Positions 25,755 to 49,049 of a DNA stretch of 64,000 nt are shown here, piece by piece. The translations under genes were made by a program, and so were the position numbers. The notes under the pieces were generated by a model that worked only from the letters and a program-made list of their open reading frames with translations, had not been told where the DNA came from and searched no databases. The DNA comes from Deuterostichococcus epilithicus (lineage: Eukaryota; Chlorophyta; Trebouxiophyceae; Prasiolales; Stichococcaceae), in assembly GCA_033439295.1 (NCBI GenBank), contig JAVTLE010000018.1:558001-622000 (forward strand), in the 5' to 3' direction. Positions within the stretch are counted from its first letter, which is position 1; each line of letters starts with the position of its first letter.

Positions 25755-28700
25755 ATGCCGGCCGCAAGCAAATCCGCCAACGTGACACACTTGTCCATGG
25801 AGCACATCTTCCCCTCGGGGTACGATGTGCCGGAGGTGCTGCAGGAGAAGATGATGGCCGCCTCGGTTGCCGAGAAGCTTCCTCGAGAGTGAGTGTCTGA
25901 AGTGCTTGGCAACGACACTGTGCCGAGGCTGTCAAGCTGGTGGGCATAGCTGTCGAGGCGCCGCCATGCATGTGGAGCATGCATGTTAGAACATCACCTG
26001 CAAGCCAATTGCGTCGATGTACCGCAGCACAGTCGCACCAGCCAGCACTGCACCGGAATCAACACATCCGTAGCACTTGTTGCATCGTGTTGCAGACCAA
26101 TTGGTGTGCACGCATGTGTTGTGTGCAGATAATGGTGCTAAGATCTGCCGCCGTCAAGACAGCACTTGTGATGCAGTGGAATGCGGTGCTAGAGGTCAGA
26201 CACCATGATGATGGACTCCATCTCGTCTAAGCTGACTTAAGGCTGCGCTGTGTTGTGTATGGCAAACTCCCACAGATATGACGACCCCAACGACCCAGAT
26301 CTGATCAAAATCTTCCCAGAGGGCTTCGAGCCCAAGGCGGGCCGCTTCTTCGGGCTGCCGCCGCACGAGCACGCCTACTTCGCTGAGAAGGAGGCGGTGA
26401 GGGGTTGAAGTGTCTCTACCAAGTGTTCCCAAGGTCGCCAGTAGCCAGTCGCCGCATCACGGCACCCAGCTGCGGCTCGTAGATACAGGGCTACCACGCC
26501 AGCTTGCCGGCTCAGGAATGGCCGATGCCACAGTGCCTGGCAATTCTGCACAATCAGGCTGCTGCAGCAGGTCGCCGCATGGCCTGGCTGCAAGGCGCTG
26601 TGATGACCGCCGGGTGGCAAGTGTATATGTGGCGATGCTATCCATGCGCCTGCGGCTGCACCACAATCGCACCTATCGCCATGTCTTATTATGATGTCCT
26701 GTGCATTTCACAGATCCGGCCGGCGATGTTCGACCGGTCGCGCAGCCCCGACATGGTACTGGAGGAGGCGCTGTACCCCTCCGGCGTGCCGCGCCCCGGG
26801 CGCCACGCCCACGTCAGAGCCCCGCCGCTGCGCCTGCACAGCCGCCGCTACACCGCCGCNCCCGGCGGTGGCACGGCTACAGCGGCAGCCGCTGCCGCCG
26901 CCGCGCCTGGCCTGGAGACCCGCCGCGTGGGCGCTGGGTGCGCAGCTCGATGTGTCGAAGCAGATTCTGCACATTTATGTGACAGGGATGACGTAGCCTG
27001 TGATGCGGGCATTGCGGCCTGCAAGCAAATGTGTGATGCCCTCAGCAAATACAGACGCCGCTTGCGGCACTACAGGAATCTTCGGCGCTTTATTTGTCTG
27101 CTGGAGGCTTCAGCTGTCCAGGGGTTTATGGGTCATGTCACAATCGGAGCCTGCAGGTGTTGTTTCTGGGCAGACGTGTGTGCTCTGTGCACCTTGCTCA
27201 AGTTTGACGACATGCCTACAGGCCGCATTCGTGTTTGCTCTCAGAGCCTGCTGCGCGTGATCTGCCTGCAGCAAGAAGGTGTTTATGGAGTCGGCGGAGA
27301 CGGCCGCAGGGCCCGCCGCCGTCGCAATTGTGGCGCGCATGGAGGAAGAAGTGGTGGAGACGGAGGGGACCTACGTGCACCGCAGGTAGTGCGGCATTTG
27401 CTTTCCAAACACCAAAGCCAAATTGAGTGTGCCACAAAGTTGGGACGATGCCCATATGAGGCGGAACCGTCGCATCTATGAGCATATGCTGCATCGGACA
27501 CTCGCTCTGAAACTCGCAGTTCCGCCATTGAACTGCAAGAACCGAGATGGCCCTCAGCAGTGGGGTCGAGAGGCTCAACAGCCATGTAGATATGTTCGCT
27601 GACACTCCCGACATCGCATAATACTGCAGCCGCCTGGTGCCGCTGGGACAGGCGCTGAGGGCCAAGGGGCGGCGTGCCGCTGCGGCAGAGCCCGTGGCCA
27701 GAGCCGCCGTTCCGGTGCGCATAAGCCTCCTGCTTTTGGAAAATAAAAACTTGGCCTGTGTGACAATTTGTGTCCGAAGAGCAGCAGCAATGAACCGGTG
27801 GCATGCACGATGCTTGGCTGCGCAAGTGTTGGCCGCACTTAGGTAACACGAGCAAAACTCACTGCAGGAAGTGGTGCCGGTCGTGCTGCAGCAGCCGGAG
27901 AGGATCTAGTGGAGACCTTGCTGCTGGAAACACAAATCAGTGCATTTAAAACGAGGTTTGACGTCCTTTCAATTACAGCAGGAGGCGCAGGCGGCGTGGA
28001 GATGATGCAGCAGGAAAACCGTTCCGCGGACGGCATGGCTGCAGGCATAGGATATCATTCAACCGGAAAGACGATGACTTTCGTGTGATGCATGCAGGAG
28101 GTGACAGCGGCATGGGGGCGCCACGAGAAGATTCAGAAAGCGGCCCGGCTGCTTGGGGCCACAGAGAAGGCGATGGCGGTGGCGGCAGCGGCCGCGGCGC
28201 AGAGCAACAACTTCAAACGGGCCGCCGAGGAGGAGGCCGCTAAGGCGGCGGCCGCGTTGGTCGAGTCCAAGGCCATGCCGCGCGTCACCGGGGTGGGCGA
28301 TTATCAGCATCATAATGATAATGCCTGCCTGTGCCCTGCTGCCGATGCCGTGTGAACCTTCAGGAGCGTGCAGCGCGAGCTGGGCCATGCAGTGCCGCGC
28401 AGCCTCCTGAGATTGTACATTCTTTCCGAGCTGTGGAGATCAGCAGAAGCTCTGGTTGACCTGCCAACAGCTCGAGCATCAAGCAGGGTCTGGGCAAGAT
28501 CTCGCGAGCTTTTCAGACTAGAAGGCAACCCTTGTAAAAGGAGTCGCGCGGAGGTGCTGCGCAAGAGGCCTGTTCGGAGCTGCGGTGTTGCAGAGACCGA
28601 CAGACCGAGTGAAGCGGAGCTGCGCACGGAGCGGACGGCTCTGCCAGCCATCCTGCGCTATCATCCAGTCACTTCTTCCCAGACTTGACCACCCCACTGG

Positions 28701-31700
28701 ACGTGCTGACCGGCTCCTCTTGGCGGTCTGCAGGAACACGTGGAGAAGCTGCGCAAGGAGCTGACGGCGCTGCGCAATGGAGTGCAGGACAAGGGCCGCA
28801 CCGCCGCCTCCCTGCGCGTGTGAGCAGCTCAGCCACATGCCGTTTTCACTTTTCCTGTCTCCGTTGTGTTCTGACGGCTCCGGCCTGCCAGCTCGCAGCT
28901 AAGCTGCATGTCGTGGGCAGCTGTGTGTGGGCTCGAGACTGGGCCAGTGTGTAGGGCAGCCCGAGCCGGCAGCCCACTTCACGGGTCCGGATTGATGAAA
29001 CAAAGTCCTGCTGTTCGCCATGCAATACTTGCCTTCGTCAGGGCCAGCCCAGAGGAATGCCGGAAGTGTTTGGTGGTCATTGACGCGCGCAGCTGTGGCC
29101 CCCTCCTGCGTTTACGCATAGGAAACCGCAGCAACATGTCCAGCAAAACACAGCCACATGTCTGCAGAACCACCCCGGTTCAGACGCGGGTTTCTACAAG
29201 ACGTGAAATGGACGCAGGGAGCTGAAGGGCATGGAGGCACGCGTCGTCAAGAAGCGCGGCTTCGCCGCTGCGCTGCTGGCGGAGGCCCGCACCCGGGCCG
29301 CCGAGGCGGAGGAGCTCCGCCGCGCCCTGCTCCGCCTGGAGGTGGTGGAGCGCGAGGCCGCCACTTCGGCCCAACACGCTGCGGTGCGCTTACTGATTAC
29401 TTGACGCTGAGCAAATGGTGTGCCGCCAATGGTGCACCGCCACACCTGACACTCCTCTGTCTGAGCCAACAAAGTTGTAGGCACCACCACCGTTCATGGT
29501 ACTCCTCTGCATTACAACCGGGCGGTGGTGGGACGGGAGGCCGCCACCACAACGACGCACGCTGAAGCACGGGGTTTGTCTTGTCGATACTGAGTCAGTG
29601 GTGTGGAGGCTGTCGCAATTGACCAGCCTGTTCTCGGGCGCCTCTAGCGGTCGCCCAGTGGGAGGCTGCCCCCTCAGCAGCACGCTACAGCGCAGCTAGC
29701 AATGCAAGCTTGCTGCCGCTTGGCGCTGAGCCATTGCAGAAAAGGTTAGCAGCTTTTGAATCTCGTCTCAAATGCCGGTCGGTCGTGGAAACGACAGGAG
29801 GCCGCCGCCCTAGCACAGCATGCTTCCACATTGTAGACATGTGCGTCGGCTAGGCGCAGCATTGGGCCAGCGTAACACGTCATGCTGCGCTGAGGTACCG
29901 CACCTTGTTGTTCCGAGGACTGCTGCGCGCTTGTGACGAGCTCCCGAGTCGCGAAACTATCCTGTATCGGCTAGGACAGCGCACATCAGGCATCACCAGC
30001 CCGCGTTCTCGGTGTGGGCTTCGGGCTGCAGGGGCTCACTGCCGCAGGAGCAGGCAGATTGCTCGACTGTGGCATGTACGAAGATGTACTCGTAAAGTTC
30101 TCACATCACAGGCCATCGAGGTGGAGGTGAAGGAGGGAGCGGCAGAGCTGGAGGCAAAGACCGCCGCCGCCGCTGGGATCGCCAAGGTGCAGCGCATGCT
30201 CCAGGCGGATTCATCATGTTGATCCTGTACGTCTCACTGCAAGTCGACATGCAGTTGCCCATACGGCCATGTGTCAGCAAAGGGAAGCGTGCGGCGGCGG
30301 CGCGCTGCACTACCGAGGCGGCAGCTGTCAGCCTGCCGTCGCTGTTGCGACCCGATTCTCGCCAGTCCAGCGAGGAGGGCGGTGGCTTCATTGGCACAGG
30401 CAGCGTCTGCCGCCCTACCCTCCAGCGTGCATGGGTAGACGAGGCAACGGCAAGCGAGGCAATGGCATGCACGACACCAATAGCCCTCGATCGAGGGCTA
30501 TCACCAGGCTGACAATATGTTGCGCTGGGGTTTGAGTTTTTCACGCCAGGCCATGTCGGTGCACTCGGCAGTGTTTACTGCTGCGAATTCGATGACGACC
30601 CTCCTGAAGGTCTGCGCCACCGCCGCAGGAGGTGGCGCTCGTGCAGGCGGCGCTGCAGGCGGCCACCAAGGCCCTGACGGCGGCGATCTCCGACGAGGAG
30701 ATGGCGGAGCCGCGGGCGCGCCTGGCGGCGGAGGAGGCCCGCGTGCATGTCGCCAATGCCGCGGTGCGTGACTGCTGCGAAACCCGAGCAAAATCTTAGT
30801 CTTTTTGCTGTTACTTCTGCTGCTTTGCTGCTTGAGCAAATGCCTAGAAAAACGCGGGAGGGGGGCTACACGTTTGTACATCTGTATGTCTGTACATGTG
30901 AGCGTAGGGAGAAGCCTGCCGTGCGCACTCCGACGACAATGCAGCGGTGCGCATGTCTTACATAAGCGTTTCGCATTATTGACATGACGTCATGACTTTG
31001 TTTTGTTTCCCAGCTGCCACAGTGCGCTAGCTCTGCTGCCTCTTCGCCCAGTCCACAGCTGTTCGGTGAGCTGAGGCCAGTTGGCGGCAGGAACGAAGCA
31101 TCGCCATTGACAGGTTGTCCGTCTCGCTCAACAGCAGAATGTTCAACTCGAGCGGTGGCGTTTCTGACTGGCAGGAACCCGAATCAATGCAACAGCATGT
31201 AAAAGGCGAGCTCCAGGCAGCGACAGGAGCTCAGTACACAGCTCAACAAGAGTTCCTCGTAGGTCATGCCGCAACTGTCAATGTGCCGGCATGCAGTGTG
31301 GGCGGCGGCTGCCAAAATGGCGAAGATCGAGGAAGTGGCAGTTCCACATGGAGTGCTGTCTGTTGAAACTCGACGAGAGCCGCAGCTCAAACCCCTCTTG
31401 CTGCTTGTTCAGGCAGCGGAGACGGCGGCGGTCGAGTCGGCGGGGCTTCAGTAAATGGCAGCCCAGAAAGCCAGCTCACCATATGACAACTGCCACAGCG
31501 CCAACCCTAATTGCTTTCTTTACTACAGGCGGCAGAAGTTGCGGCGGTCAAGGCGGCAAAGGCGTGGAAGCTGGAAGCACGCAAGGCAGAGGCGAAGCAG
31601 GCGGAGTCGCTGCGGCTGTGGGAGGAGGTCTGCACCACTGATCATTGTTCTTCTCTCTGGTTTGCATGAGACTTTCGTTGGGTTGTTCGTGTATGTCGTG

Positions 31701-34398
31701 CAAGTAATATGCGTAAGACGGATCAGCAGTTTGCGAGCCTCCTTCCCGAGTGTCTCAGGGCATTCACCTAAGTCATGCAGCTCAAGGGCCCCAGGCGCAG
31801 AGGCAGTGCGCAGCGGCAGGGTGCGGTCGGGGAAGGCCTCCACGTCGAATTCGTGCGTATGATCAGATCAGCCTAAATGTGTCCTAGCTGATACAGGTGC
31901 GCGCCATGGGGGAGCATGCGGGCGAGGGCGTCCGCGACGCCACGCCAGTCAAGGTAGCTTTTGTCCCACCAGCACCCATTTTCGAGTGGCCAAATAGCTC
32001 TCGCATCCCGAGCATGTGGGGCTACCGTCAACCTATGGAATTCTGGCGAGCTGCGCACTTCGCAAAGGCCTGATCTGCATGGGGCAATGTGAGTTGCAGA
32101 TGCTGCTCAGGTGGCGCAGCCGCTACAAGCTGCTTCCTCAGCAGTGCGGTCCTTTCCGTCCACCTTCATTCCCTTTCCCGGACACCAGTCCTCACCAAAT
32201 CAGCAGGGGTCAGGCACTCCCGGGACTTCGGGGGTTTATCTGGGGGCCTGCCTGACGCGTGATGCTCTCGATCCACAGGACAGCCATGCGATCATCACAG
32301 GGTTTTGTTGATACTGGGGCGTCAGATGCGGAAAACGCATTCCTGGAGAAGGGCACCCGAGTGCTTTGTGCAGCCAGTGTGCAGCGAGACTACTACAGGC
32401 GCACTCGACGGTCCGAGGGTTAAACCCTAAAGCCCCGCTGCGCAGCCCGCAGTTTTGTCCCCCCGCAACTGACAGCGCATCAGCTGCAAAGCGTCTGCAC
32501 ACGTGTTTCAAAGCTGAGCGAGTCTGCTTGGTGGGCCCGGCAACATCAAGTAGGGCGACCGAATGGAGGCGATGATTGCCGGGTGCATACTGCGGCTGCT
32601 CTCGATGGATCCGTGCTTCACTGCGCCCTGGAACCTGTCTCGCAGCCGCCGGCCATCATTGATGAGGGCGACCGGGTGGAGGCGGTGGATGCGGTGCGGA
32701 CGCTGCTGGAGGCGGAGGCGGACCTCGGCTCCATGGAGGCGGCGCTGGCGCGCGGCGCCGGCGCTGCCGCCACCATCGGAGGTGATGAGCACCCTGCACT
32801 GTCAAGTTGGTTTCGAATGTGTCATCAGAGGCCCGCGCAGCCTCGGAGCCGCGGCTGCAGCACTGGTGGCACCTCAGTGGTGCCAGAGGTGAGAAGGCTG
32901 GCGGCGTTCGTCGCCGGACGATCCACACAAATGACTGGCGGGGCTTGGTGCCGCGGAGGCAGCGCTGACACCCTGCAGACGTCATGACACATTCTTGAAC
33001 ATAAACCAGTACCTCTCATTCTGGAAGTTGCTATGGCCTTCTGGCATGCTGTCACACCGTGACTTAAGCATATTGGCTCGCTGCGGCTGCCAGCTTTAGC
33101 TGCCACGCTGACACCGCCAGCCGGAAAGCCGACCAGCTTTCCAGCTGCGAGGTGACGTATGCACGCCTGCAGCCAGCTGCCGAGGGGGCACACCCTCTGA
33201 TCCCGCCCGCATTGCCAGGGAAACCGGACCAGAACAGCATGTGCAGCTCGCCGTCTTTGTCACTGTGTTCATTGTTGAAAACTGGACGCCGCCCAAAGTT
33301 CGGTCTCTGACAAGCGAGGCCAGACACCGCAGCTTGATGCTGCTGGCCCAGCGCCGCCGGCAGTTGATAGTAGCAGGCCGGCCCGCGAGAGGCAATGTAC
33401 AGCCTCGACAATGGCAAACCCTCCAGCAGGCTGCCGTCAGCGCCTGTCAGCACAGAAGCATGTCGGGCCTGCGGCTGCTGCCAACGCCAGAGTGCTCTTG
33501 GCAGCGTCTGTTGAAACAGTGCTGTGCCCCCATAATGCACTGCAGAGGCGGGCGCCGGGCCGGAGCCGCCAGAGGTTTGGGGTCCTGGCTCCGAGTACGA
33601 TGTGGGTGGCGCCTCCTACGTGCCGACTGCCGAGCCTGCTGGTGGGCTGCTCAATCGTATGTAGACTGCAGAGTCCAGTCAGCGTGCGGACCTGCGTTGG
33701 CAGAGCAGCTGTTAAGCGGGCTCGGTGTATGAACTTGGCTTGTGTCCTGTTTGGTGCATGATGCCCCAACATGCTCGAGCGAGGAGCAGCAGCATTTCCA
33801 GGGCGGTGCCAAGCTTCAAGCAGCCCGCTGTCGCAGGCACTGCTGGTTAGTGAGTCTGGGTGCGGCGGCAGCGGCACGCAGCAGATGTGCCTCATGTCGC
33901 TTTGGCATGGATATATGTTTTGTTGTGATGCCGGGGGCTGGCGGTGCAGGCGAGGAGGCGGCGGCACCGGCGACCGAGGCAGTGACTGTGCCGGCGCCAC
34001 CTGGCGATCAGCCCGCCGTCCCCATCAAATTTGAGGTGGAGGTGGAGGTGGAGGTGGAGGAGGAAGCCGCGGAAGCTGCAGCAGGCGAGGAGGCCGCTGG
34101 CGGCGATGTGCGCCGCGCAGTTGACGGCGTTCGCACTGCCGCCTCAGGCGGCGGCGGGCCGGCTCTGGATGCGGCGCCGCCGTCCACGACGAGCCGCGGC
34201 GGCGTGACGGGTGGCACCGCTTCCGGCCTGGAGGTGCCCACCTCACTTGTGACGGATTCCCATCCATTCCTTCGGATTCTTTGTTCGCATTTGGCACATT
34301 GCCGATCTTGACCCTACATACGCGCCAGGCCCTGACGACCCCTGTGGGTGCAGGCCCGCATGGGAGATGATCGTGGAGCCGGCAGTATCGCAGCGTGA
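25755..34398 (+). CDS. Unrecognised Ala/Glu/Lys-rich coiled-coil protein
   Basis: A 15-exon chain with matching phases gives about 636 residues: 25755-25888, 26276-26396, 26714-26937, 27272-27385, 27540-27585, 28098-28292, 28734-28817, 29222-29383, 30112-30186, 30629-30763, 31529-31627, 31897-31953, 32646-32781, 33950-34233, 34354-34398. The N-terminus is a compact, non-repetitive part (IFPSGYDVPEVLQEKMM; DPDLIKIFPEGFEPKAGRFF; RPAMFDRSRSPDMVLEEALY), followed by a long heptad-like stretch (AAWGRHEKIQKAARLLG; EHVEKLRKELTALRNG; AALQAATKALTAAISDEE; AAEVAAVKAAKAWKLEARKA) and an acidic, Pro/Gly-rich tail with (VE)n. No family recognised; a cytoskeletal or ciliary-type scaffold is only one possibility. 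An unresolved base N sits at 26860. The exon starting at 29222 uses a less usual acceptor. Two further coil-like fragments at about 31297-31355 and 31414-31450 could be alternative exons. Confidence 0.65.
30481..30500. repeat. Perfect 20-bp palindrome in an intron
   Basis: TAGCCCTCGATCGAGGGCTA, with no loop, inside the 30187-30628 intron of the coiled-coil gene. Confidence 0.9.
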
Positions 34399-35195: not shown

Positions 35196-38100
35196 TCATG
35201 GTCCCTTGGACAGGGGGTCGAACACCTGGACGAAGCCGCGCTGCACGAGTTTCACCACTATCACCTGCACGCAGCAGATCGCCACGAAGTCGCGTTCGTC
35301 GGCAGCAGAGCCATTCGCCACCAAAAGGCGGAGATCCAGCTTTGTCGTCATGCGAGGCTGGCGCCGCCGGCAACTCGCAGGCTGGCAGGCCAGCCTCTGC
35401 GGCATCTGCTCGGCGGGCTGCCAGCCTCGCAGAGTGCGTGGCAACCACGATGTTCACATGACCTTGTCGGCGTAACGAGCCGGGCTTTAGGAATCTTTCC
35501 CGAAATCCACGCTTCTTCTCGGCGCGCACCTGCTCGGTGTGTGTCATGGCGGCATTGAGGACATCACTCGGGAAGCCCATCATCTGCACCCGCGCCTCCG
35601 GCGAGCAGCCCAGCGCCGCCAGCAGCACTGCAGGCGGCAGGGATTGAAGGCATCAGCTAGGCAGCACCGCGGGGACCCACTGGAAGGCTTCTGGAATGCA
35701 GCTTCTAGGCGCTCCTCATGCAAGCACCGACGCCGGTAGAGGGGCTCGTGCCCATGCGCCGGCGCAGGTGCCGAATACAAGGTATCAGACTAGGTACAGT
35801 ACCTCAGCGAAGCGCGCTCCCTGGCAGTAGTGTCTTCAGGCCAGGCTGCATGGCCGCGACAGCGCCGGCGGCAAAGGGCTGGTGGCACCACGGCAGCAGA
35901 GCTTCTAGGAGCGGCAGCGGCGGAACAAAACAGGAAGGATAATCGCGTGTCCTATACCGGCGAGCCCCACCTCCGAACTGCGCGCTGACGGTGGGCATCG
36001 TCTTCTTCGGGACGTCCGTCGGCTTGGGCGGGAACAACATGCGGCGCAGGTGGCCCAGGCGGGGCCCGAGGCCGTCCATGACCACGCGAGCTACTTCCGG
36101 CTTCCGCTCCAGCGCCAGGCCGTGCCGGTCCATCGCCTGCGCAGTGGGGATTGCAGCACGCTGTGGCGGCAGGGCTGGCTGGACGGGCACTGGAACCATC
36201 GGCGGGCTTGGAACCATCAGCGGGCTTGAAACCCGAGCATCTATCCGAGCTGCTGTCGGTCGCATGAAGTTGCAGATGGTGGCACTGGCACCCGGTGCGG
36301 GCTGTGGGGCTGTCATCAGGATGCTTGCGTTTCCCCCCCACTGGCCGCAGGTTGGCTGATTGCTAGGTAGGCAGGCCGCAGCCAGCGGTGGGGGAGGACA
36401 CAAGCACCAGGCGGGAACAACAGCTCTCGATGGGCAGAGCCGCACCGCTTTGACGTTGTGGTGCAGCCCGCCCCAAAACACCAGCGACTTGGTGAGCTTC
36501 AAGGCAGCCGCCATCTCGGGCGGCACGGCAAAGTCCAGCCCTTCGTAGCCGCCGTCCGGCGGCGCGCCTGGCGCCTGGTGCCGGAAGGACACCACCCACA
36601 CCATGCGCTGGGTGCCGATCAGCCTGCGGGCGGCACAGCACAGCCACAGCCCTCAAGGCACACGCTGAGACACCCCCGCACCAAGACGAGCCGTGGGCCG
36701 GAAGGTGGCGGCTTTGCGGCTTTGCCTGGCTGCCATGCACCAGGCCCGGCCTGAGCTGCCGCGGCGCGCAGTGGACCAGAATCTCCGGAAGTGTGGGTGC
36801 GACGCCAACACACCCCGAACGGGCGAACCCCTGGAAGGCTTCCAGCAGCCTGAGAAAGCCGCGCACCGGCGATCCAGGCCGTCAAACACCTACAATCAGC
36901 ACTTCTGGGTTCTGCATCAAGCCCTAAACCATCCCCAAACCCCCAAAAGGTGTGCGCACCTGCGGTCCACGCCGTCAAAGCGCACGATCGTGTCCGCGAC
37001 CCGCAGCGCCCGCTGCTCGGCGCCCGTGAGCGAGCCGCTGCCGACGAGCGCCACGCGGGCCGCAGACACCAGCCGCAGCCGGCGGCACAGGTGCGGCAGG
37101 CTGTCGGGGTGCGCCGCAGTCTCCGCACGGGCCTTTCGCTCCACGTCCGCATCGGCGCCTGGGGCCGAACGAAGGTTGCAATGGTCACTGTCTGACATGA
37201 GACTCGGAGGAATCTGTCGCCGGCGGCACGGGTGCGGCAGGCGCCTTCTCCTCCGCTGCGAGCTGCACATTCGCGTCGGCACCTGCAGTCGAGAACTTGT
37301 CCTCGTGTGTGCAAACTAAGCGCCTCTTTGGCCTTGTAGGCCTTCTGAAGAAGGACCGGATGTACTATGTGATGGTGCGCCGCCTCGCGCGCTTTCGGCT
37401 CCACATGGAGCTTCACGACGCCCGAGTTTGCCGTTCGGTCATGGATCGCAGGAAATTACGAAGCTTGTTCTGATCTGTGCAAGCTGATGGTGCGCCACTG
37501 CCTCCTCTCAGGCCCACGCCCGTGCCGGCGCCTGGACAGTGTTCGACAGTGTGTCATTGTGTCATTTCTTCCGACTCTGGCTGCAGGGTCGGGTTGTGGG
37601 GTCCAGAGTTGCATGGTCTGATAGCAGGGCCTGGCTGCTGCCACGATCTGCTCCAAGGACGACGGGATGTGTTACTGCTGGGGCTGATGAGGGCACAGGC
37701 GGTGCACCCTGCACCCGCATCTGCAGGCACAGCCTGCGGCAAACGTGGGTGCTGCTCGTCGGAAATCTCGATCTGTTGCTGGGAGCGGCTGAAGTCTAGG
37801 TCACCAGCCCTGTGGATGGCTCATATCCAAGAGAGGTACAGCGACATGCGACAGGTTTCCTGTGCAGGCACCTGTGGCGGGCCATGGCGGTGCATCTCCA
37901 AACCGACATTGGCGCCCAATCATCGTTGGTGGATCAGATGCGGAAGCAGGCCCCCAGACACCACGCAACAGTACAGGGTGTGTGAAAAAGAATGCTCAAG
38001 GTATGTTGAACCCCTGTAGTGGGCAGGGGGGCTTGCAGTTGTGCAGCTCATTGCCTGCGGCGTGCACTGCGCCATGCGGGCAGGCTGTCGGCGCCACCAA

Positions 38101-41100
38101 GCAGAAAAAGACTCGCACAGTGAAGTGCGAAATGATATTCAGCGGCACCTGTGGCGGGCGCGAGGCCACGGCGATGCAGCTCCACGCCCACGGCGTGCAC
38201 CGCGTCCCGCAGGTAGGCCGTCGGCGCCACCCAGCAGGAAGGGCGGCTCGCCTTGCAGTTCACGTCCAGCCGCCGCACGCATGCCCGCAGGCCTGTGCAC
38301 GCAAGTCGTGGTGGCAGGCGATTAGATGGAATGGTAGAGACGTGTTTGATTCTTTCTTTTCTAAAGTGAATCCATCCTCAGGATTCAGCAGGCGGCAGCG
38401 CAGGCACGCCCACAGGGCTGCGCCCGGACTGCGGCGCTTGTGCTCAGAAGTTTTCTCTGAAGGTGACGGCATTGCCCTGCGGCCGCCGCCTGCAAAGGGT
38501 TGGTGCGAAAGCTAAACTTGACCGAAACTGAGGTTCCGAAAACAAGCTTGCGCGGCGAGACAGGCTGCTCAGAGCAGATCGCTTCAGAACAGCACGCCGA
38601 CCGGACGAGACTCGAGCACGAGCATTGCGGTGCAAGGATGGCAACCCGGCAGGGTGTATGGTGCCACGCTCAATGCCGAGAGTCCTGTAGGACAACACAG
38701 CGCTTTTGCGGGCCGGCAGGCGGCAGCTGGGTGCTGCGGCTGGTCCCCAGAAGAGCAGGAGGAGAAACTCTCAAGAAAGAGTGCACACCCCGGCAGGGCG
38801 GTGGGTGCACCCGCAGCAGGCCTGCCGCCTGCAGCCCCTCGACGGCGCGTGCCTCGGCGCCGACGTCATGCCGCGGCCAGTGCCCCGGCGACCAGTTGAA
38901 GCCGTACAGCTGGATGGCGGATTCCGCCGGCAGGCACGCCAGCGCCGCCAGCACGACTGCGGGGCGGGGTTCACACGTCGGGTGTCAGGACAGGATCCGC
39001 ACGCCTGAAACCCGGGCTGCGGGGCAGGAGACCAGGCCACTGCCCCTGGTGCATGTGCCGCAAGCGGAGCACTGCAGCGCCGGTGCGTGTGTCGCAGCAG
39101 TGGAGGCTGTTGCAGAGGGAGGCCGATGCAGCTGCGGCAGTAGCCACGAGCATCCGACCTGAAAGCTGCCGGAAGCAGCTTCGGGCAGCTCTCAGGGCGA
39201 TGGTGCGCACCCACGAAGCCAGTGGTGGGGCTGACTGCAAGCCGGGTCGTCACGTTGCGCGGCACCTTGACCACGCTCCTGCATGCAGGTGCAGAAGAGT
39301 ATGGCCTTTGTCCTTCCAAATGGCACCAGATGAATGGCTTCACGAATGAGGTTTGGAATGGCACGCTCCAAATCTACAGATAGAGTAAAACGTGCTCTAG
39401 GGCAGCTGGGGACCTTGGGTATCACTCGATTTTCACATCAGGCCTGAACCCGAGTTGACTCCGGAGCACTTGATGCAGTCCAACTGGCGGCAACGGAGAC
39501 GATCCTCAATCGGGCATTGGGTTCTGTTATCTAGTCAACTACGTATTTATGCCAGCATCGTGGGAGTGGGCGCGCGCGCCTGTACAGGCGGTCGTAGTGC
39601 GTCAGGAACGCCTCCGTCTCGACGTGCAGCAGCTTCTCGGCCGGGACCCGCGGGTAGTGCGCCAGCGCAGCATGGACGGAGGTGGTGTTGCCGCCCAGCA
39701 GCACCACCGCCTCCGCTTGCTGCATTGGGATACAGCATCCCTCAGCTCTTGCATGGCGGTCTGTGTTGCGGTTTGGGGTTATTTGCAATCCCGGGTTTGC
39801 TTGCGATTTCGGGGTTGTGTGTAGCTGATTTGAAAAGGGCCAAGAGCTGGCATCGCCGCCCAGCATCACCGACCGTGCCTCCGCTGGCTGCGGCACACAG
39901 AGGGAAAGGACTTGGCAGTCTGTGGCCTGCGGTCTGGAATTCGGCGTCTAGGACAGCGCGCGAGCGCCGCCGCGCCCACCGAGCTGGAATTTTCGTCAGC
40001 GACACCACATTGGCACTGCTTCCTGCACAGCGGGCAGGTGCTTTGCGAGTTCGGGGTCTCAGAGCGCCACAGCGCTGCCGGAGGGTGTGCACAGTGTCCA
40101 CAGCAAACCTGCCGCAGCTCAGGCTGCAGGCGGCAGGCTGCCCTGCTGCGCCGGCACTCCCTGCTTGCCACTTCAGTCCCACGCCCTCCAATACGGACAG
40201 GTCGACGACTCACGACCTGTCAGCCAGAAACGATTAGAAGGGCGGCCGGTAGCTCACCGCGAACGGCGCCTCAACCTCTCCAGCCGTCACGGGCGCACCC
40301 TCCTGCTCCAGGCCGTAGTACATTGCGGGGGCGCGGCCGGCGTGGCGGGCCACCCACACGTCCAGCCGCTCCCCCGGCAGCCAGTTGTTCAGCATGTTCA
40401 TGCGCACCTGCAGGGGTGAACATTGCTCATTGTTGGTGGTTTTGTAATGGTAGTTCGATAGGCGGCGGGCACCGAGTGACGGGCCAGCGTCACATCAGGG
40501 CACCCGTGCACGGGCACGCGCTGACGGGCAGGCCACGGGTCGGAATGGCATAGCCTGTGGGGCTGCCCTAATCAACACAATGCCACGGCTTGCTACTCCG
40601 ACCTGGCGTGCGCACGTGAGCCAACCTCTGCCTTTCCGTCTGCTGAGCGCGGCGTCCATTGCGGGACGTTAACAGTGACTCGGACCTGCACACTGACGGA
40701 ACTCTGAATGGGAACCGCATGATGTTGCGGCGCGACTCACCACGCGCTCGGTGGCATTGATGGCCGCGCGCTGCTCGACGCTCAGCGGGCCGTTGCCGAC
40801 GAGCGCCACCGAGGCCGGCGGGGCGTCGCCCTCTACGCCCACCATCGCCGCGCAGAACAGGTTCTGGTCCGCCCCCTGCAGAAGCACTGGCGCTGCAGCT
40901 GAGACGCGCCCATGCATCCCACGAGGTTCAGCTGTTTGCCGCAGGGTGGCTGCATGAAGTAGGGTGGCGCCACCTCGGCAGCCCGCCGGAGGGGGCGAGG
41001 AGCAGGGAATTGTTTGGGTAAGAGTCATTCAGGCGGCTGCTGCAGGGTCGGTCTTCGCGTGCGCGCCGCGCCATCGGTCACGGAGGCGCTGCTGCGTCGA

Positions 41101-44100
41101 GTGCGGGAGGCGCTCTGCCGCCTGAGGTTCGACCCTGTGCCCTCATTGCCTCCCAGCTGACTGGCCGGCCCAGCAGCTGGAGGGGAAACCAGAGGGGCGC
41201 TTCAAACCAACACAATTAGTAAAGCGCACTCGCCTGAACCACTGCAGCGGCGACGGCAGCGGCTGCGCCCCAGGCGTTTCCCTGCTGCGCCGCCGGCCGC
41301 GCCGCCGCCGCGCGCCATTNGGTGGCGGCGGCCTCCCGCTGCTTCCGCCGCTGCGCGGCGCTGGCCTTCCCACCGCCGCCGCCGCCGCCGCCCACTGCAG
41401 GGTACATGAGGCGGAAAAACCGCCGCAGGTCCGGCCGCTGCTGCACCACCTCCGCCATGTCCGCTCGGGCGACCTGCGATCATTCATTCCTTTCTTATTA
41501 GGTTTTATGTGCGCCATCAGCCTTGGAGCTCGCGAGCAGCACTCTCGACGCATCAGCCGTCACCGTGCGCTGCCAGGTGCAGCGCTGCGTCTCCGCCGGC
41601 GGGGGCCGCCGGCTGCACAATACTGCGGGCCGGGGCGGCGCAGCTCAATACCCACCCCTCCTCCCCCGAGCCCCCTGACATCCCGATCCGGGTCTGCAAC
41701 CCCGGTGTTCATCGCGATCCCCCCAAATGCGCCGCTTGCCTTGGGGAAGCCGCAGGCGTCATCGCGGGCGCGGCACCAGTGCTCGTCGAGCCGGCCGCAG
41801 GAGCGCAGCGCGTCGCAAGGCGAGTGGTGCAGCGCCAGCCACCCATTGGCCTCCATCGCCTTCATGCTGGCCTGCAGCCGCACGCAGAGGCAGGGGTGTG
41901 CCTGGCGTCGCGCGCAGCGACATGCAAGGTGCGCACATGGATTGAATGAAGGAAGATAAACGGCGCACACACCCTCTGGCGCCTCTGCCGCCCCCGCGTC
42001 AGCCAGCCATGCAGGTGCAGCACTTGCACGGGCGAGAGTTCAATCGACAACAAGACAACCGCATGGCCCCGCAGCCGCGAGCTGCCGCTGCGCTGGCGCA
42101 GCGGCGGCAGCCAACATCGGCTGTGCACAGACCGGCAGGGCACACAAGTCTACAGTCGGAACCACACAGGATCAACAGGAGCCGTGACACGAGAGGCACG
42201 GCAAGAGGGTGCATACGTGCTCGCTCCAGCGGGGGTGGCGCTCAGCCTGCCGCGGCGACCAGTTGTAGCCGAAGGCGTGCAGCGCCGTGCCCGGCGGCGT
42301 GCACGCGACCGCCAGCATCGCCACTGCAGCCAGTAGGACGTCAAGTTAAGCAGATTCGCCTGTCATCAGCAGCACCTGTGCAGGCATGCTGGCGACTGTT
42401 CTCACAGACGGCTCCCATGACCCTGTGCATGCACCGCCGCAGATGCTGAATGAGTGGACCCATGCAGCCGCCCCCTCCTCTCTACTTCCCCTCCCGACAT
42501 TGCTTCCCTTTCCAACAACCATCGAGGCTTCAACATGGTGGATCATGTGGGCATGGGGATCGCAGGCAGCGTGCCGACATTCCAAGCCCATGCGGCCACG
42601 TATCCCCGGTCAGGTCTCAGCACGCTTGGCGACGGTCAGAATGTGTCACCCAAGAACAGTTTTCGCAATGCAACATGGTGTGATGGACCACCGCCACCAT
42701 GCAGAACATCATGCGACGCTCAGCAGACACCCCAGCAGCCTGCAGCAGGGGTGCAGCAAGACAAAGTGCAGTGGAGGTTCAGCTGTGTGTCTTCATCCCC
42801 TTTGCGGGACGCACGCGTGAAGCCGGAGGTCGGGACCCGCTCCTCTGTTGCGCTCTTGACGCGCCGGAAGGCCGCCGCAAACTGCGCCAGGTACGCATCC
42901 GTCGGAGCGTACAGCACTGTGCTGAACCCTGCGGCGGTAGCAGCAGGGCAAGCCTCGTGGCGGATGCTGACAGCACAGCAGTTGCAAACGAGCTGCATTC
43001 GGACGGCAGCAGAGCTGCCGCAAGGCACTGTCTGCAATGGCTGCCGGCCGCCGGCTGTCAGTCGACAACGTGCCGGCCACCATCTCCGTGCGGCAGCTCA
43101 CGGCGTGGACCACCCCTCGAAAGGAAGCGCCCAGCCTGTCTTGGAGTCGCTTCGGAGCATGGGCACAGCCATCGGGCGTAAATCTGCTGACAAGCAGAAT
43201 GTACATATTGGCACCTGATGACATACTCACCATGCGGCAGCAGGAGAGGACACATCACGTTTGAGAGGGGAAACCCCGCACAAGCGATGGTGGCATCGTG
43301 ATGCCTGAACGCAAACAAGGCAATATCCACCGCCGAGCCGCCCAGAAACAGCAGCGACGGCCACGATAAGCTTCGAAGCTGGACCTCAAGACTATGCTTA
43401 TGAGATAACCCAGAAATCCAGAATCCAGACCCAGAAACTCACAGGAGATGGCGGCGTTGTGAGGCGCCTGAGCGCAAATGCGACGTCCGCCGCCGCGCCG
43501 CCGGGGAACAGCGGCGCCGGCCATGATGAGGTTTGAAGCCTGACACCAGGGCTGACATGGTGCTAGCAAGGGCAGCATTCCCCTTGTTCCCCTTGGGTGC
43601 CAGAGCCTTACGGGAGATGGTGGCGTTGTGACGCCCGAGCGCAAAGGCGACGTCCGCCGCCGGGCCGCCCAGGAACAGCAGCGCCGGCTGCTGGCCGAGC
43701 ACCTCGTCGGCCTCCTCCTCGTCCAGGTCGTCGAGACCGCCCCAGCGCTCCGGCGAGCCTGGGTGGTGCGTCAGCACCCACAGATGCACCCGCTCGCCCG
43801 GCAGCCTGCGGCGTTTGCGTCGGGATGTTGTAGGGTTCAGGGTTTCGCATGCTCAGATGCCAGCGTGGTTCAGGGCTCGGAGGCGGTGGGCACGAGGCGC
43901 TTCGCGGCACGAGCTCCGGTTGGGCACCGTGTCTGCTGCCCAGGCACGCGGCAGGCGCCCAGCAGCGGGCAGCCAGGAGTGGAGCGGCGTCACCCTGGCG
44001 TCAACAGCGCATCAAGCCTCGGTCGCATGATGCAGCAGGCGACAGACCGCAAACCCCATCTCGAGAACCATTCCCAACCGCTGTTGTGATAGGCACAGAC

Positions 44101-46557
44101 CGGAGCCTGAGAGCAAGGAACACTAAGCACAGCTGTCGTACTTAGTATCCCCTGTTGACGGCGGTCACCTGTGGTGCATCCAGTTGAAGCGCACGATGTA
44201 GTCCGCCGCGGCAATGGCGGTGCGGTCCCCCGGGGCCAGCGGCGCATTGCCGACCAGCGCGATGCTGAGGTGTGGCCGCCGCTTCCTCCGCGGCGCGCGT
44301 TGGTCCTCAGAAAACAGCCGGCACAGCCTGTAGCACGGCGAGTTTGTGAGGAGCGATGTCTTCCTCACTGATTTGATTATGCCCGGGCATGAGTTGGCAT
44401 CTCGTGAGCGTCCAAAGCATGAGCACAAACCGCATGGTCAGTCGGCGCGTTCGACCACTTCGTATGCTGACATCCGTCCACACAGCGCGCACACCGCAGG
44501 CAGGACGGCTTCAAGCCGACGAGCTGCTCGAAGACGGACTCTGCGGGGCCTTCTCTGGCTGCGGCTGGATGCTTGTGAACTGCTGGCACACCACCCTGTG
44601 CCGCCGCCCACTTAGGTCTTGTAGCGCCAATGCCTGGGAGTATCATTCAATTGACTCGATTCATTTTGGGACCAAAGGCTGGGCATGCACCTGAAGCCGG
44701 CGCTCCTGGCGTCTGGCGACAGAATCGGAGGCAGCGGCTCCGCCAGCTGGTCGGCATGCTCCGGCTTCCTGCTTCCGGCGACGCGGGCTGCGCAGGCCTG
44801 GCCCGCCTGCTGCTCCTGCGGCCAGCTTTTGAAGGGTCCTCAGAGCACGGGAAGTGAGCAGCAGCCATGTCGGCGGAATATTGCATTTGAAAGGACCAAT
44901 GTCGAAAGCTGGGCGCAGGTCCAGGTAGGTGCGTGCGTGCTGCCCAAATGCTTGGGCGGCATGCCATCGTGCTCCACCCTGGCAACGACATCACTTGCTC
45001 TGGATGCTACTGCACGCCTTGACTTGCAGCGTCGATCGCAGGCATTAACACAGCAGTAGCTGCCGCGCCTTCAATCCCAACAAGCAACATCCGCGAGCGG
45101 GGCATGCACCCTACATGCACCAGAAACTCGAAGGTGTATAGCCCGGCCACTTGCCTGCGCAGCGAGCAGTGTGCGGCTGCGGCGCGGGCGCTGTTGCACG
45201 GCGCCTGCGTCGCCGGCTTGTGCCTGCACAAGCAGGTTGAGGGCAGGTCAGGAGCATCGCGCCAGTGAGCTGTTTTGGCAAAATCGCCCGGTGAGAGCGT
45301 TGAGCTGAGTAGTCAGTGCTCGCTCTGGGCAGACATTGGTGAAGATAAGACAAGCAGCTCCCAGCATGCAGGTGTAAGACTGAGGCTGGACAGCTGCCAC
45401 AGCCGGCAGCCCACCTGCTTCTGTTCCTGTTGCTGTGCTGCGCCGTCAGCATCCGCTGCCGACCTTGCCTCAGCTCTATAGCCCGCCGCCACCACGCCTG
45501 GCAACCCTGCGGCGCCGCCGCCGCCGTCTGGCACCTGCACAGCGGCAGCGGCAGCGGCAGCAGCAGCGCCGCCGCCGCCCTCGGAGCCGCCAGCGCCGGC
45601 CTGACGCAGGACGGCGCCGCCTCGCTCCCGCTCTTGGGCCGCCTGCTGCTGGCCCGCCGCGGCGCCTCGTCGCCGCCGTCGCCGCCGGCGCCGCATGCCC
45701 CGCAGCTGGCCAACAGATGCCAGCTGTTCAACCTGCTGCCCGCCCTGTCGCTCGCCTAGCATTGCCTGCGCCTGTAGGTCCTGCTGTCGCTGCGGCAAGG
45801 ACGCGCCCGCCCGCAGTTGCTGCTGCAGGTCGAGCCGGGCACCGCCGTCGTGCTGCGGATGTTGCTGCGGCTGCACGGCGGCTGCGCCCGCCGCTGCCCC
45901 ACCGTCTGCCACAGCCTGCTGTGCGGCCAGTGGCATGGGTTCTTCATCAGCAGCGGCGGCGGCCTCGAGCTCGGCGTCTAATTGCTCAGCTGAGTCTTCG
46001 GCGCCCATCGCATCCCGCTCAGCGCTCAACAGCTCGGCGGCGGCTGCGACGTCGAGGTCTGCATTCCGAAAAGCTGCTGCACTGTCGGCGGCACCGATGG
46101 CATCTGGCCTCGGATCCATTTGCGCCGCTGCGCCAGCATCGCTGGCGTCAGTAAGCTCGGCGTCCAGCCGTGCTGCTGTGTCATCTGCCATGCCAACGGC
46201 ATCGGGCCTAGCCTCCAGCTGCACCGCTGCGTCTGCAGCACCAGATCCTTCGAGCTGAGCCTTTAGCTGTCCAAGTTCGTCTGCGTCGCCAGCGGCATCG
46301 AGCTCAGCATTCAGCCGCGCGGCTGCGTCCGCGACGCCAGCGGCGTCCAGCTGCGCATCCACTTGCGCGGCCGAGCCTGCGGCAGAACCGGCGTCCAGCT
46401 CGGCGCCCCTGCGCATGGCCTCGTCCTCAGCGGCGGCGGCGCCGTGCTCAGCGTCAAGCGACGAGGCATCCTCTGCGTCGCTGGAGGCGCCCTGCTGCCG
46501 CCCGCCCGCAGACGCCACCTGCTGGCCGAAGGCATTCAGCTGTGGCTCCTGCTCCTG

Positions 46558-46598
<41 letters not shown>

Positions 46599-49049
46599 CT
46601 GATGCGCCGCCCAGCGCCTGACCGGCAGCCTCGCTGCGGGCCTCACCCTCGACGGCGGCGTCGCCCTGCTGCCCTGCTGCCCAACGTGACGGCTGCAGCA
46701 GGTCGCCCGCGTCGCCACCGCCCGCGCCGCCGCTGTCAGCGCCGTCGGCGCCGTCGCCGCCCGCCGCCTCCGCATCCTGCAGCGGCTCCGCCAGCGGCTC
46801 CGTCAGGGATCCGTCAGGATCTTCGTCCACCAGCCACTCGTCGGCGTCGCGCCCGCCAAACGCCGCAACCCGCTGGTAAAAGTCTAAACCCTCCTCGTAC
46901 TCGTCTTCCTCGTCGAGGCCGGCGCCGCCATCTGCGCCGGCGTCGCCGTCGGCGCCGCCGCCGCCGCCGGCTTGGCGTCCCAGGACCGCCGCCCCTCTGC
47001 CGCCGCCGCTGCCGCCGCCGCCGTCGTTGAGAGCAAGGTCGCTGCCATCGCCAACAGTGTCACCGGTCAGACCGCCGCCGCTGCCGCCGCCACTGCCGGT
47101 GAGAGACAGATCGCTGCCATCGCCCACGGGGTCAAACTCATCCTCTTCCTCTTCCTCGTCCGCCTCCTCCAGTGCGGTTGCCATTGCCGCCGCCTGCACG
47201 GCGGCGGCGGCCGCCCGCTCGTCCGCATGGAGGCCGCCCTGCAGCAGCGGCACAGCTGGCGGCGTCAGGAATTTTAGGATTGCAACTACATGCCCGGCGC
47301 CTCTCGTGCGGCGCTTTTGCTATTTTTTGGGCTCATGACCTGGGACCATGCGACAGTCGTTAGGGCGAGTTGCAAGCCCTGTAAGCGCCCTCGCTGTATC
47401 GTCCAGCGGCCAAGCATCTCAGCGTCCAACTCGTCTGGCAACGCTGCTGAGCTCGCCCGAAATAGCCTGCCACACACAGCAGCGCATCCCTCCAGGCAGG
47501 CGCAGATCATTTGGCAACTGTGGAGGGGCGTGCCTCTCGCTCCCCGGAAGGCTGCTCCTCGACGCCAGCGGCGGCCGCAATCCCCGCATCCAGCAGTTCG
47601 ACACCCTCAATGTTGCCGCCGCCGCCGGCTCCAAGGCCAATGCCCGCATCCGCCCCGGCCACGACGTCGTGGCTGTCGACCTGCACGCAGTCCGAAACAG
47701 TTCTGTGGCGCTGCGTAAATGCAAGGCCAATGTATGCGTTGATGGCGCTGACCTGGTCGCTCTCTCTGCTCTTCTGGACCCCATGTCAGCCTCATAGAGA
47801 GCTCCATGTGTGACCAACCACTGGCGCCATTCAAACGCGCTGCAAGTCGCAGGCTACCTGCTGCGCGCGCACGTTCGGCTTCCACCAGGCTTGCAGAGAC
47901 GACCACGCAAGACATGGAGGGACCGCCTGACCTGCGTGGGGTCGGTGCGCCGGCGCGCCGCCAGGCCCTCCTCACGCGTCACCTGCTGCATCTCCATCGC
48001 GCTGAACACACACAGGTCCTCCTGCAGACCATTGAGCATGCTTTCCGTGGGACTTCGTGGTCACGATGGTAAACTGATGCCCGCAGCAGTGGGGGGCACG
48101 CACGCAGTCTGGCTGTCCTCTGCGCAGGGGACCACATCAAGGGGCCGGGCGGCAGCCCAGCACAGCCGCGCTTGAGGCGCAGCGGCGCCGGGCGGGCCTG
48201 TGCAGCCGGCTTCTGGTGACACACACGCGTGCATGCAGTGCCGAGTTTGCTGTTCCCATCTGGACAGGGGTTTGCAGGGCCCATGGAGCCGGGCGTCAGG
48301 TATGGCAGCCAGTAGCAAAGTTCAACAAACATCAAACAACTTATCCGCACCTGCAGCTCAGGCGCTAGTGAGGCGACCAGCAGCGTCTCAAACGCCGAGG
48401 TGTTGGACGTGTGGCGCGGCGCAACGCCGGGAAACTCCAGCGCTGAGCGCGCCCGCAGGTCAACCGTTGGAATGGAGTCCCGCCCGTACTGCAGCCGCAG
48501 CATGCCTGCGAAGGGGGACCGGCTGCACTCACATGGGCGCCCGAGACGCTTGCCGCCAGGCAGGCGGGCGGCTTGCGGCGGTGGACGGGCCACCAGTGGC
48601 AAGTGCAATGGCACAGCTGTGATGGCAAGTCCTGCATCCCGCTTCAAGGCGGTTGCTGCCGGCCGCAGCCTTGCTGCGCTCGCGCCTGCGCATGCAGAGC
48701 TAGGGGCGCAGAGATCACCCCCCAGTCGCGGCAGACTCCGCTCACCGTAGACCACATCGGGCGTCAGAACCGACTCGATGGGCACCGGCGGGCTCTCCGG
48801 CGTGTAGAACATGGCGCTGTCCAGGCCGGGCCGGGCGGACTTGGCGGTGAAGGCCGACAGGAAGTAGCTGTCGCCGCCGCCGTGCTGCCATGCTTCCGCC
48901 GCCAGGCGCAGCACGCAGACGCCCAGCAGCAGCGCCAGGCCCAGGCGCAGGACCCTGTTGCGCCTGAAGGCTCCGGTGTCCGACTGCTGCCGGGATCGAG
49001 GGTGCCGCGATCCAGGGCTTCGGCCGTTGTGCGGAGGCGACTTTGGCAT
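35196..49049 (-). CDS. Giant type II membrane protein with three tandem GT29 (sialyltransferase-like) domains
   Basis: Read as one gene of 25 exons and 1743 residues with every phase matching. Anchor and stem: 48746-49049 (RVLRLGLALLLGVCVL membrane segment), 48351-48505, 47932-48021, 47519-47680, 45415-47238, 45155-45223. Domain 1: 44691-44815, 44493-44540, 44169-44327, 43612-43805, 42815-42928, 42217-42323, 41740-41871. Domain 2: 41234-41473, 40741-40875, 40258-40407, 39586-39719, 39211-39278, 38789-38956, 38149-38292. Domain 3: 36960-37158, 36446-36623, 35971-36136, 35530-35627, 35196-35264. Each domain has an L-motif-like segment (IALVGNAPLAPGDR...YIVRFN; VALVGNGPLSVEQR...VVRMN; VALVGSGSLTGAEQ...IVRFD). 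Domains 1 and 2 also have S-motif-like PTSGF or SPTTGF plus AFGYNWSP or LYGFNWSP, and RH....E. Topology implies Golgi. Alternative: three tandem genes, with stops such as 41560 used if the GC donors are not spliced. Domain family is well supported by motifs; single-gene status is inference. Confidence 0.7.
37198..37282 (-). repeat. Degenerate copy of the domain 3 first-exon edge
   Basis: Minus strand reads GADANVQLAAEEK...; the real exon at 37158 downward begins GADADVERKARAE. Both share the acceptor, the GADA start and a later CTGCCGCACC-TGCCGCCGGC block. The copy has an internal deletion and sits in the intron just upstream of the real exon. Confidence 0.7.
38040..38110 (-). repeat. Degenerate copy of the domain 2 last exon
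   Basis: Resembles the exon segment at about 38170-38240 (CWVAPTAYLRDAVHAVGVEL) but is frameshifted. It lies in the following intron about 130 bp downstream. A further trace, CACCTGTGGCGGGC, recurs near 37869. Confidence 0.6.
43268..43522 (-). repeat. Two degenerate copies of the domain 1 exon 3' edge
   Basis: The real exon end at 43612-43690 encodes LLFLGGPAADVAFALGRHNATIS. Copies at about 43440-43522 (PAPLFPGGAAADVAFAL...) and 43268-43370 (LLFLGGSAVDIALFAFRHHD) lie downstream in the same intron, about 170 bp apart. Confidence 0.8.
45935..46375 (-). repeat. ~16-residue (48-nt) coding repeat in the glycosyltransferase stem
   Basis: About eight imperfect units of the form LDAELDAAGxADxAAx, for example VDAQLDAAGVADAAAR, LNAELDAAGDADELGQ, LEARPDAVGMADDTAAR and LDAELEAAAAADEE. 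Strongly acidic and Ala-rich; part of the 45415-47238 exon. Confidence 0.85.
46549..46600 (-). repeat. Coding CAG repeat (poly-Gln) in the stem
   Basis: A run of CTG on the plus strand encodes about eleven Gln on minus, followed by an EQEQEPQ segment. Length-variable repeats of this kind are common assembly and polymorphism sites. Confidence 0.9.

Follow-up and report, generated by a model that had tools for sequence, protein, structure and literature searches.

Three GT29-like units, arranged in tandem behind one membrane anchor, are predicted to form a single gene on the minus strand (49049-35196) of the window, which is the whole stretch of 64,000 nucleotides analysed here (contig C16, 558001-622000; the assembly has 46.8 Mb in 21 contigs). 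We assign this reading a probability of about 0.5, on the basis of gene models. The tandem units themselves are real and probably belong to one gene, in which two motif-complete GT29-like domains would be accompanied by a degenerate third. The description of the locus in the earlier note as three tandem paralogous units behind one anchor, here of type II, was borne out: the units are homologous to one another and to two dispersed paralogs, with pairwise identities of 22-44%.

Locus and predicted gene structure

The GC content of the window is 56-69% (per 2 kb), its predicted genes are intron-rich and the predicted neighbors encode a phospholipase B-like protein, a DJ-1/PfpI-like protein, a protein kinase and TCP-1 gamma. 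With such neighbors the locus has the appearance of normal nuclear DNA. The organism is putatively a chlorophyte alga. A tandem array of 154-bp and 133-bp units was observed at 16842-17531. In addition, two predicted genes, which start at 63138 and at about 80763 (the latter beyond the window), are closely similar, and the first has a low-complexity insert; this pair may be apyrase-like.

To predict genes we used a gene HMM self-trained on this genome; its intron length law had one, two or three stages, and introns either did or did not have a composition of their own (six variants in total); all re-trainings without the window began from a model that had seen it. After re-training on sequence that excluded the window, the two-stage model with separate intron composition gave one gene at 49049-35196 with 23 exons and 1701 amino acids. 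Two other self-trained models placed the gene at the same coordinates with 28 exons and 1713 codons and with 27 exons and 1757 codons. Thus, the total of 25 exons and 1744 codons proposed earlier was not reproduced, and all self-trained gene models used the same start and stop bases (ATG 49049 and the TGA ending at 35196). Both were found in the translation, as were the previously named exons and splice signals, i.e., AAG/GCAAGC after 41740 and CAG/GCGAGT after 41234 (the slash marks the exon end), exon 41473-41234 between them, and exons 38956-38789 and 38292-38149. The predicted features are listed in Table 1.

Table 1. Features of the predicted gene and its surroundings (window coordinates).
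Feature	Position	Strand	Basis
Exon 1: ATG, basic N-terminus, hydrophobic anchor VLRLGLALLLGVCVLRLAA, type II topology	48746..49049	-	hydropathy 2.21
Lumenal stem, exons 48505-48351, 48021-47932, 47680-47534	47534..48505	-	translation and gene models
Large low-complexity stem exon, Ala/Gly/Gln/Asp-rich	45415..47238	-	gene models
Stem exon preceding unit 1	44691..44815	-	gene models
Unit 1, exons 44327-44169, 43805-43612, 42928-42815, 42323-42217, 41871-41740	41740..44327	-	
Exon joining units 1 and 2, GC donor on either side, holds N at 41320	41234..41473	-	
Unit 2, exons 40875-40741, 40407-40258, 39719-39580, 39278-39211, 38956-38789, 38292-38149	38149..40875	-	
Unit 3, exons 37158-36960, 36623-36446, 36136-35971, 35627-35530, 35264-35196 (TGA)	35196..37158	-	
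End of unit 1 exon 43805-43612 and two decayed partial copies in the next intron	43279..43688	-	

The anchor segment claimed for exon 1 is present in its translation. It is the one N-terminal hydrophobic segment before unit 1, in agreement with type II topology, and the protein is putatively located in the Golgi. The exact-exon posterior of exon 1 was 0.96 in the two-stage model; in the simple model it was 0.58 with the window in training and 0.08 without it. From exon 2 to unit 1 the stretch was joined at a posterior of at least 0.995. The span of the large low-complexity stem exon is poorly resolved (exact-exon posterior of 0.12 in the simple model), and an extra exon with a GC donor at 45223-45155 occurred in two simpler models and was absent from the two-stage model. 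The decayed exon copies at 43688-43279 (71% identity over 255 bp and 80% over 76 bp) lie outside the predicted protein.

The three units and their relation to GT29

When each unit was searched against its own genome, two further single-unit loci stood out, on contigs C5 (at about 965-966 kb) and C19 (at about 4163.9 kb). Weak matches were also found for unit 2 on C18 (E 0.2, or 2e-4 in a small set, with 26% identity and the motifs absent) and for unit 3 on C3 (E 0.2). The five domains (units 1-3, C5 and C19) could be aligned, and the L, S and H-x4-E residues were all aligned in the four motif-complete ones. Unit 2 was closest to C19 (43.8% identity) and only 35.3% identical to unit 1; thus, the locus does not have the look of a recent triplication. 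In the tree, whose supports were only 56 and 77, unit 2 had the shortest branch and unit 3 the longest (2.49). All five domains have a phase-1 intron just after P[ST][ST]Gxx, at the same position and in the same phase; a phase-2 intron at NN/RLPGE was common to units 1, 3, C5 and C19 and not found in unit 2. These shared introns show that unit 3 is a true divergent copy despite its motif loss.

The VGNxPL...RFN segment that the earlier note ascribed to every unit is exact in unit 1, but reads VGNGPL...RMN in unit 2 and VGSGSL...RFD in unit 3. Sialylmotif L in the broader form VGN[AG]PL...VR[FM]N is present in units 1 and 2, C5 and C19 and absent from unit 3. The same four domains contain sialylmotif S (P[ST][ST]G...C...G[FYM]), in place of which unit 3 has TVSAQFG...MMGF. 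The H-x4-E pattern of motif VS reads HPRWSE in unit 1, HDVGAE in unit 2, HAIAAE in C5 and HNMGAE in C19 (the last depends on a manual exon join, as the gene models skip that part of the exon) and is missing from unit 3. Overall, unit 1 keeps VGNAPL, VRFN, PTSGF, GYNW and H-PRWS-E, and unit 2 keeps VGNGPL, VRMN, PTTGF, GFNW, HW and H-DVGA-E, whereas unit 3 is degenerate but open, with VGSGSL and VRFD and with neither P[ST][ST]G nor H-x4-E. The HW pair also occurs in C5 and C19, and unit 1 has QA at the same place; that HW corresponds to motif III of GT29 is a guess.

Units 1 and 2 therefore keep the motif residues expected of the proposed GT29 catalytic domains, but since most of these residues are gone from unit 3, the claim of three such domains is too strong. 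Unit 3, which has lost them and kept homologous introns, is probably a pseudo-enzyme, as judged from its sequence. It should be noted, however, that according to part of the text of PMC5811610 motifs III and VS are also missing from two of the three GT29 proteins of Arabidopsis; hence, motif loss need not mean loss of activity, which argues against a dead unit 3.

It is also conceivable, although improbable, that the locus is a decaying array, in which one part is functional and the remainder is pseudogene that a gene finder can still thread. The loss of most motif residues and the longest branch in unit 3, QA instead of HW in unit 1 and the two decayed exon copies in an intron of unit 1 are consistent with such decay. 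However, unit 3 consists of five open exons with exact-exon posteriors of 0.72-1.00 in the simple model when the window was left out of re-training, the frame could be followed without crossing a frameshift or a stop, and the N in the joining exon is the only ambiguous position.

The relation of the units to known families was examined with profile searches. No Pfam family matched any of the three units or any of the five domains at E <= 10, and PF00777 (Glyco_transf_29) was among the unmatched. A search with PF00777 against the whole genome also gave no match; it gave none in any of 14 control genomes either and is hence uninformative. A search of each unit against this family had been proposed in the earlier note, with a miss named beforehand as a refutation of its reading; it was run and no unit matched. 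We do not count this miss as a refutation because of the rank in the PDB profile search and the S-VS alignment described below, but as PF00777 gave no match above cut-off, we call the units GT29-like rather than GT29.

In a search of 177,635 PDB sequences with a profile of the five domains, 6apj (alpha-N-acetylgalactosaminide alpha-2,6-sialyltransferase 2) ranked first with an E-value of 0.062, its L and S-VS regions matching in order and neither stretch being significant alone; arginases followed at E 2.2. A profile made without unit 3 matched 6apj as the sole PDB entry (E 0.051), in the L and S regions, which were again not significant alone. With hhalign against the S-VS fragments of three GT29 structures, PTTG, YGF and H-x4-E were aligned (E 4.1e-4, probability 34.8%), and the H-x4-E of the domains aligned with HDLSLE of 6apj. 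When unit 2 alone was searched against PDB with phmmer, nothing matched. No relative was confirmed in prokaryote genomes (25 pattern matches) or viral contigs (40), which were scanned with one to two peptide patterns. Weak as it is, the profile link to GT29 structures thus lies at the expected positions.

The idea that the units represent another family of nucleotide-sugar enzymes, with a motif resemblance that arose by chance, agrees with the Pfam result, the PDB E-values of 0.05-0.06 for stretches that are not significant singly and the hhalign probability of only 35%. It is nevertheless hardly credible to us, as the top match among all PDB sequences was a GT29 enzyme, with the L and S regions in order and the histidine and glutamate of H-x4-E aligned with those of H-D-L-S-L-E.

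Predicted joining of the units into one gene

The joining exon contains an assembly N at 41320, which was overlooked when the exon was previously taken as open: the codon NAA becomes the stop TAA if the base is T on the minus strand. A further ambiguous N occurs in the assembly at 26860. The exact-exon posterior of the joining exon was 0.90-0.94, and it fell to 0.00 if N was a stop (two-stage model) or if GC donors were barred (simple model). In the simple model, a non-stop base at 41320 gave a probability of 0.86-0.98 that units 1 and 2 are joined, over all settings, and a stop base gave 0.66-0.78. With the non-stop base, the whole gene was joined at 0.90-0.95 when the learned settings were used; short-gene priors lowered this to 0.71-0.82 and the barring of GC donors to 0.67.

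GC-AG introns account for 40 of 305 predicted introns (~13%) in 164 kb of the genome, with a strict AG preceding the GC. Among the 118 introns of eight other predicted genes, 15 were GC-AG, at least one of them being a false join of MCM8 and a GT29-like gene. Two junctions were compared with conserved proteins: that in MCM8 (TADHQ/ALLIAMEQ) lies in a gapless alignment to a solved MCM8 (7wi7), and that in TCP-1 gamma (VMFNK/DVV) is continuous in 4b2t, in an alignment where the query had a 14-residue insertion dropped by a later model. These matches suggest that GC donors are real in this organism, with an exact share that depends on our own models. The pentamer TGTAA was considered as a gene-end signal, was not enriched after 21 predicted genes and was dropped as evidence.

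In its first form the HMM joined the units into one gene, yet it merged MCM8 and the C5 paralog as well (0.93-0.99, or 0.66-0.67 with GC donors barred) and predicted 11 genes on the window whose strands alternated without exception. Fusion and strict alternation indicate that the simple model over-merges, and because it fused MCM8 to the paralog we did not trust it as the sole basis for joining.

In the six variants, the probability that units 1 and 2 are joined was 0.95, 0.81, 1.00, 0.94, 1.00 and 0.66, and that for units 2 and 3 was 0.99, 1.00, 0.98, 1.00, 0.94 and 0.58 (at least 0.937 in five). The C5 control was joined at 0.85-0.99 in the first three variants and at 0.35 in the fifth; no variant but the fourth (two-stage, separate composition) and the sixth (three-stage, separate composition) brought it below 0.01. 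The sixth, which is the stricter one, supported the joins at only 0.66 and 0.58. The fourth gave 0.94 for units 1 and 2, 0.995-0.997 for units 2 and 3 and 0.93-0.94 for the whole gene, and it split the control pairs MCM8 and GT29-like (0.002-0.003), SET and ResB (0.078), and EamA and RING (0.0). These pairs were deemed separate genes from their unrelated Pfam domains and sit inside the training sequence, and as the two-stage variant was picked after its success with the controls had been seen, its figures are optimistic. On the other hand, it cut genes that were whole in the simple model (26259-34398 into three and 21749-24730 into two), and hence it seems unbiased towards joining.

An enzyme of the lumen requires a signal, which separate genes for units 2 and 3 would have to supply themselves. 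The best ATG-led 17-residue segment had a hydropathy of 2.21 in exon 1, 1.85 in C5 and 2.04 in C19; the C19 anchor was included by the gene models, and that of C5 is a manual reading, the two-stage model starting the gene just downstream. Such segments were weaker before unit 2 (1.59, an Ala-Val stretch) and unit 3 (1.26), and a value of 1.72 was reached by an open stretch at 38142 that has no ATG. In 500 random 1-kb windows the median was 1.39 and 33% reached 1.6, so that a missing anchor is not rare by chance, and the values mean only that units 2 and 3, if they were genes of their own, would have poor anchors.

A division into two genes, with unit 1 ending in or just after exon 41473-41234 and units 2 and 3 forming a second, two-unit gene, is unlikely, though it has to be taken seriously. 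Candidate ends of unit 1 are 41320 (N as TAA), the TGA at 41560 and a TAA near 41216; T at the ambiguous base lowers the simple model to the 0.66-0.78 given above, and the join of units 1 and 2 requires two successive GC-AG introns. When a stop was imposed at 41320, the split paths started unit 2 mostly at 41074, 40917 or 40845. Each division, however, leaves unit 2 with the Ala-Val stretch as its best anchor, the start at 40845 drops a Cys that unit 1, C5 and C19 also carry before the L motif, and the two-stage model holds the join at 0.94 even with N = T, through another path.

Three separate tandem genes, which is how the locus was initially read, appear highly improbable. It is true that the three-stage model with separate composition parts units 2 and 3 in 0.42 of paths and that 990 bp is a long gap between these units (of the 309 predicted introns, 8 have at least 900 bp), but five of the six variants join them and none of the ATG-led segments upstream of either unit equals the known anchors. 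The single gene with three units is thus the reading we retain. As for the one open frame claimed earlier, the parts do join in phase via GC-AG introns, whereas the single transcript is a prediction of the gene models alone.

Donor sugar and proposed function

Genes for CMP-Kdo synthesis were detected in this genome: KdsA (TIGR01362, 380.6 bits versus a cut-off of 314) on C1 near 1312 kb and KdsB (TIGR00466, 196.2 bits versus 155.2) on C12 near 2309 kb. In contrast, NeuB (PF03102) had no match in an exon-by-exon search of the genome, in which controls were positive in 9 of 14 genomes. Nucleotide-sugar transporter exons were also present. The organism probably makes CMP-Kdo, as far as these profile matches go, and with KdsA and KdsB found and NeuB unmatched, CMP-Kdo is a likelier donor than CMP-sialic acid. 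A sialic acid donor is thus unlikely for the domains that the earlier note calls sialyltransferase-like.

Animal GT29 enzymes have a single catalytic domain and use CMP-sialic acid as donor, and LARGE1 and K4CP combine different activities in one protein. The residues of L, S and VS occur in animal GT29 enzymes (6apj, ST3Gal1 and ST6Gal1) in the same order as in the present domains. LARGE1 and K4CP, like the predicted protein, have more than one transferase domain per polypeptide, as stated in part of PMC13411425; the present protein differs in that its three units all belong to one family, the third being degenerate. In the portions of open papers covered by a literature search on GT29 proteins with several domains and on transferase domains in tandem, no GT29 protein with domain repeats was described.

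Among plant proteins, RCKT1/MGP2 and SIA2 (Arabidopsis At1g08660 and At3g48820) resemble the present protein in being GT29 members with a sialyltransferase-like annotation and a likely Golgi location (PMC11288761 and PMC12168206, in part). RCKT1 differs, as compared by description, in that its model has a single transmembrane helix and a single catalytic fold (part of PMC11288761), whereas three units and a long low-complexity stem are predicted here. For Bathycoccus prasinos, part of PMC3491373 describes 69 GT29 proteins, nearly all of which consist of an N-terminal anchor, a stem that varies and a GT29 domain at the C-terminus. This layout is similar, but the genes are dispersed and nearly intronless, without evident tandem duplication; in the present genome two dispersed copies were found together with three units in line, and the genes are intron-rich. 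Other GT29 counts in the consulted parts of the literature are those for Chloropicon primus (59 genes; PMC6731263) and for Dolichomastix and Bathycoccus (given in PMC4815162).

According to the parts of PMC11288761 and PMC12168206 that deal with it, RCKT1/MGP2, a GT29 protein of plants, putatively serves as a CMP-Kdo transferase for RG-II. As described in part of PMC5811610, GT29 enzymes have been suggested to have moved from sialic acid to Kdo in streptophytes, and perhaps in prasinophytes as well. We infer that the protein described here, which would be a type II Golgi membrane protein of ~1700 amino acids with an anchor, a long low-complexity stem and three GT29-like units, works like RCKT1/MGP2. 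CMP-Kdo, or a similar CMP-ulosonic acid, would be taken in the Golgi lumen and the sugar transferred, with inversion, to a glycan of the cell wall or of scales. Unit 2 would be the most likely catalyst and unit 1 a second transferase or one with an altered acceptor, while unit 3, as a probable pseudo-enzyme, may bind the acceptor or stabilise the protein. A more specific and rather doubtful proposal, which we make tentatively, is that the two sites add ulosonic acids (Kdo) sequentially or processively, with the dead third unit serving as an acceptor-binding or regulatory module. Such a protein would have several GT29 sites and a pseudo-enzyme of its own in one architecture.

If the single-gene reading is true, this organism would have a GT29-like protein with repeated transferase units, whereas a single domain of this kind is the usual state, and the locus would offer a natural test of the division of work between catalytic and dead GT29 units in tandem. 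Very divergent GT29-like enzymes can, in that case, escape Pfam, and the protein would be a candidate for Kdo transfer in an organism that is alga-like.
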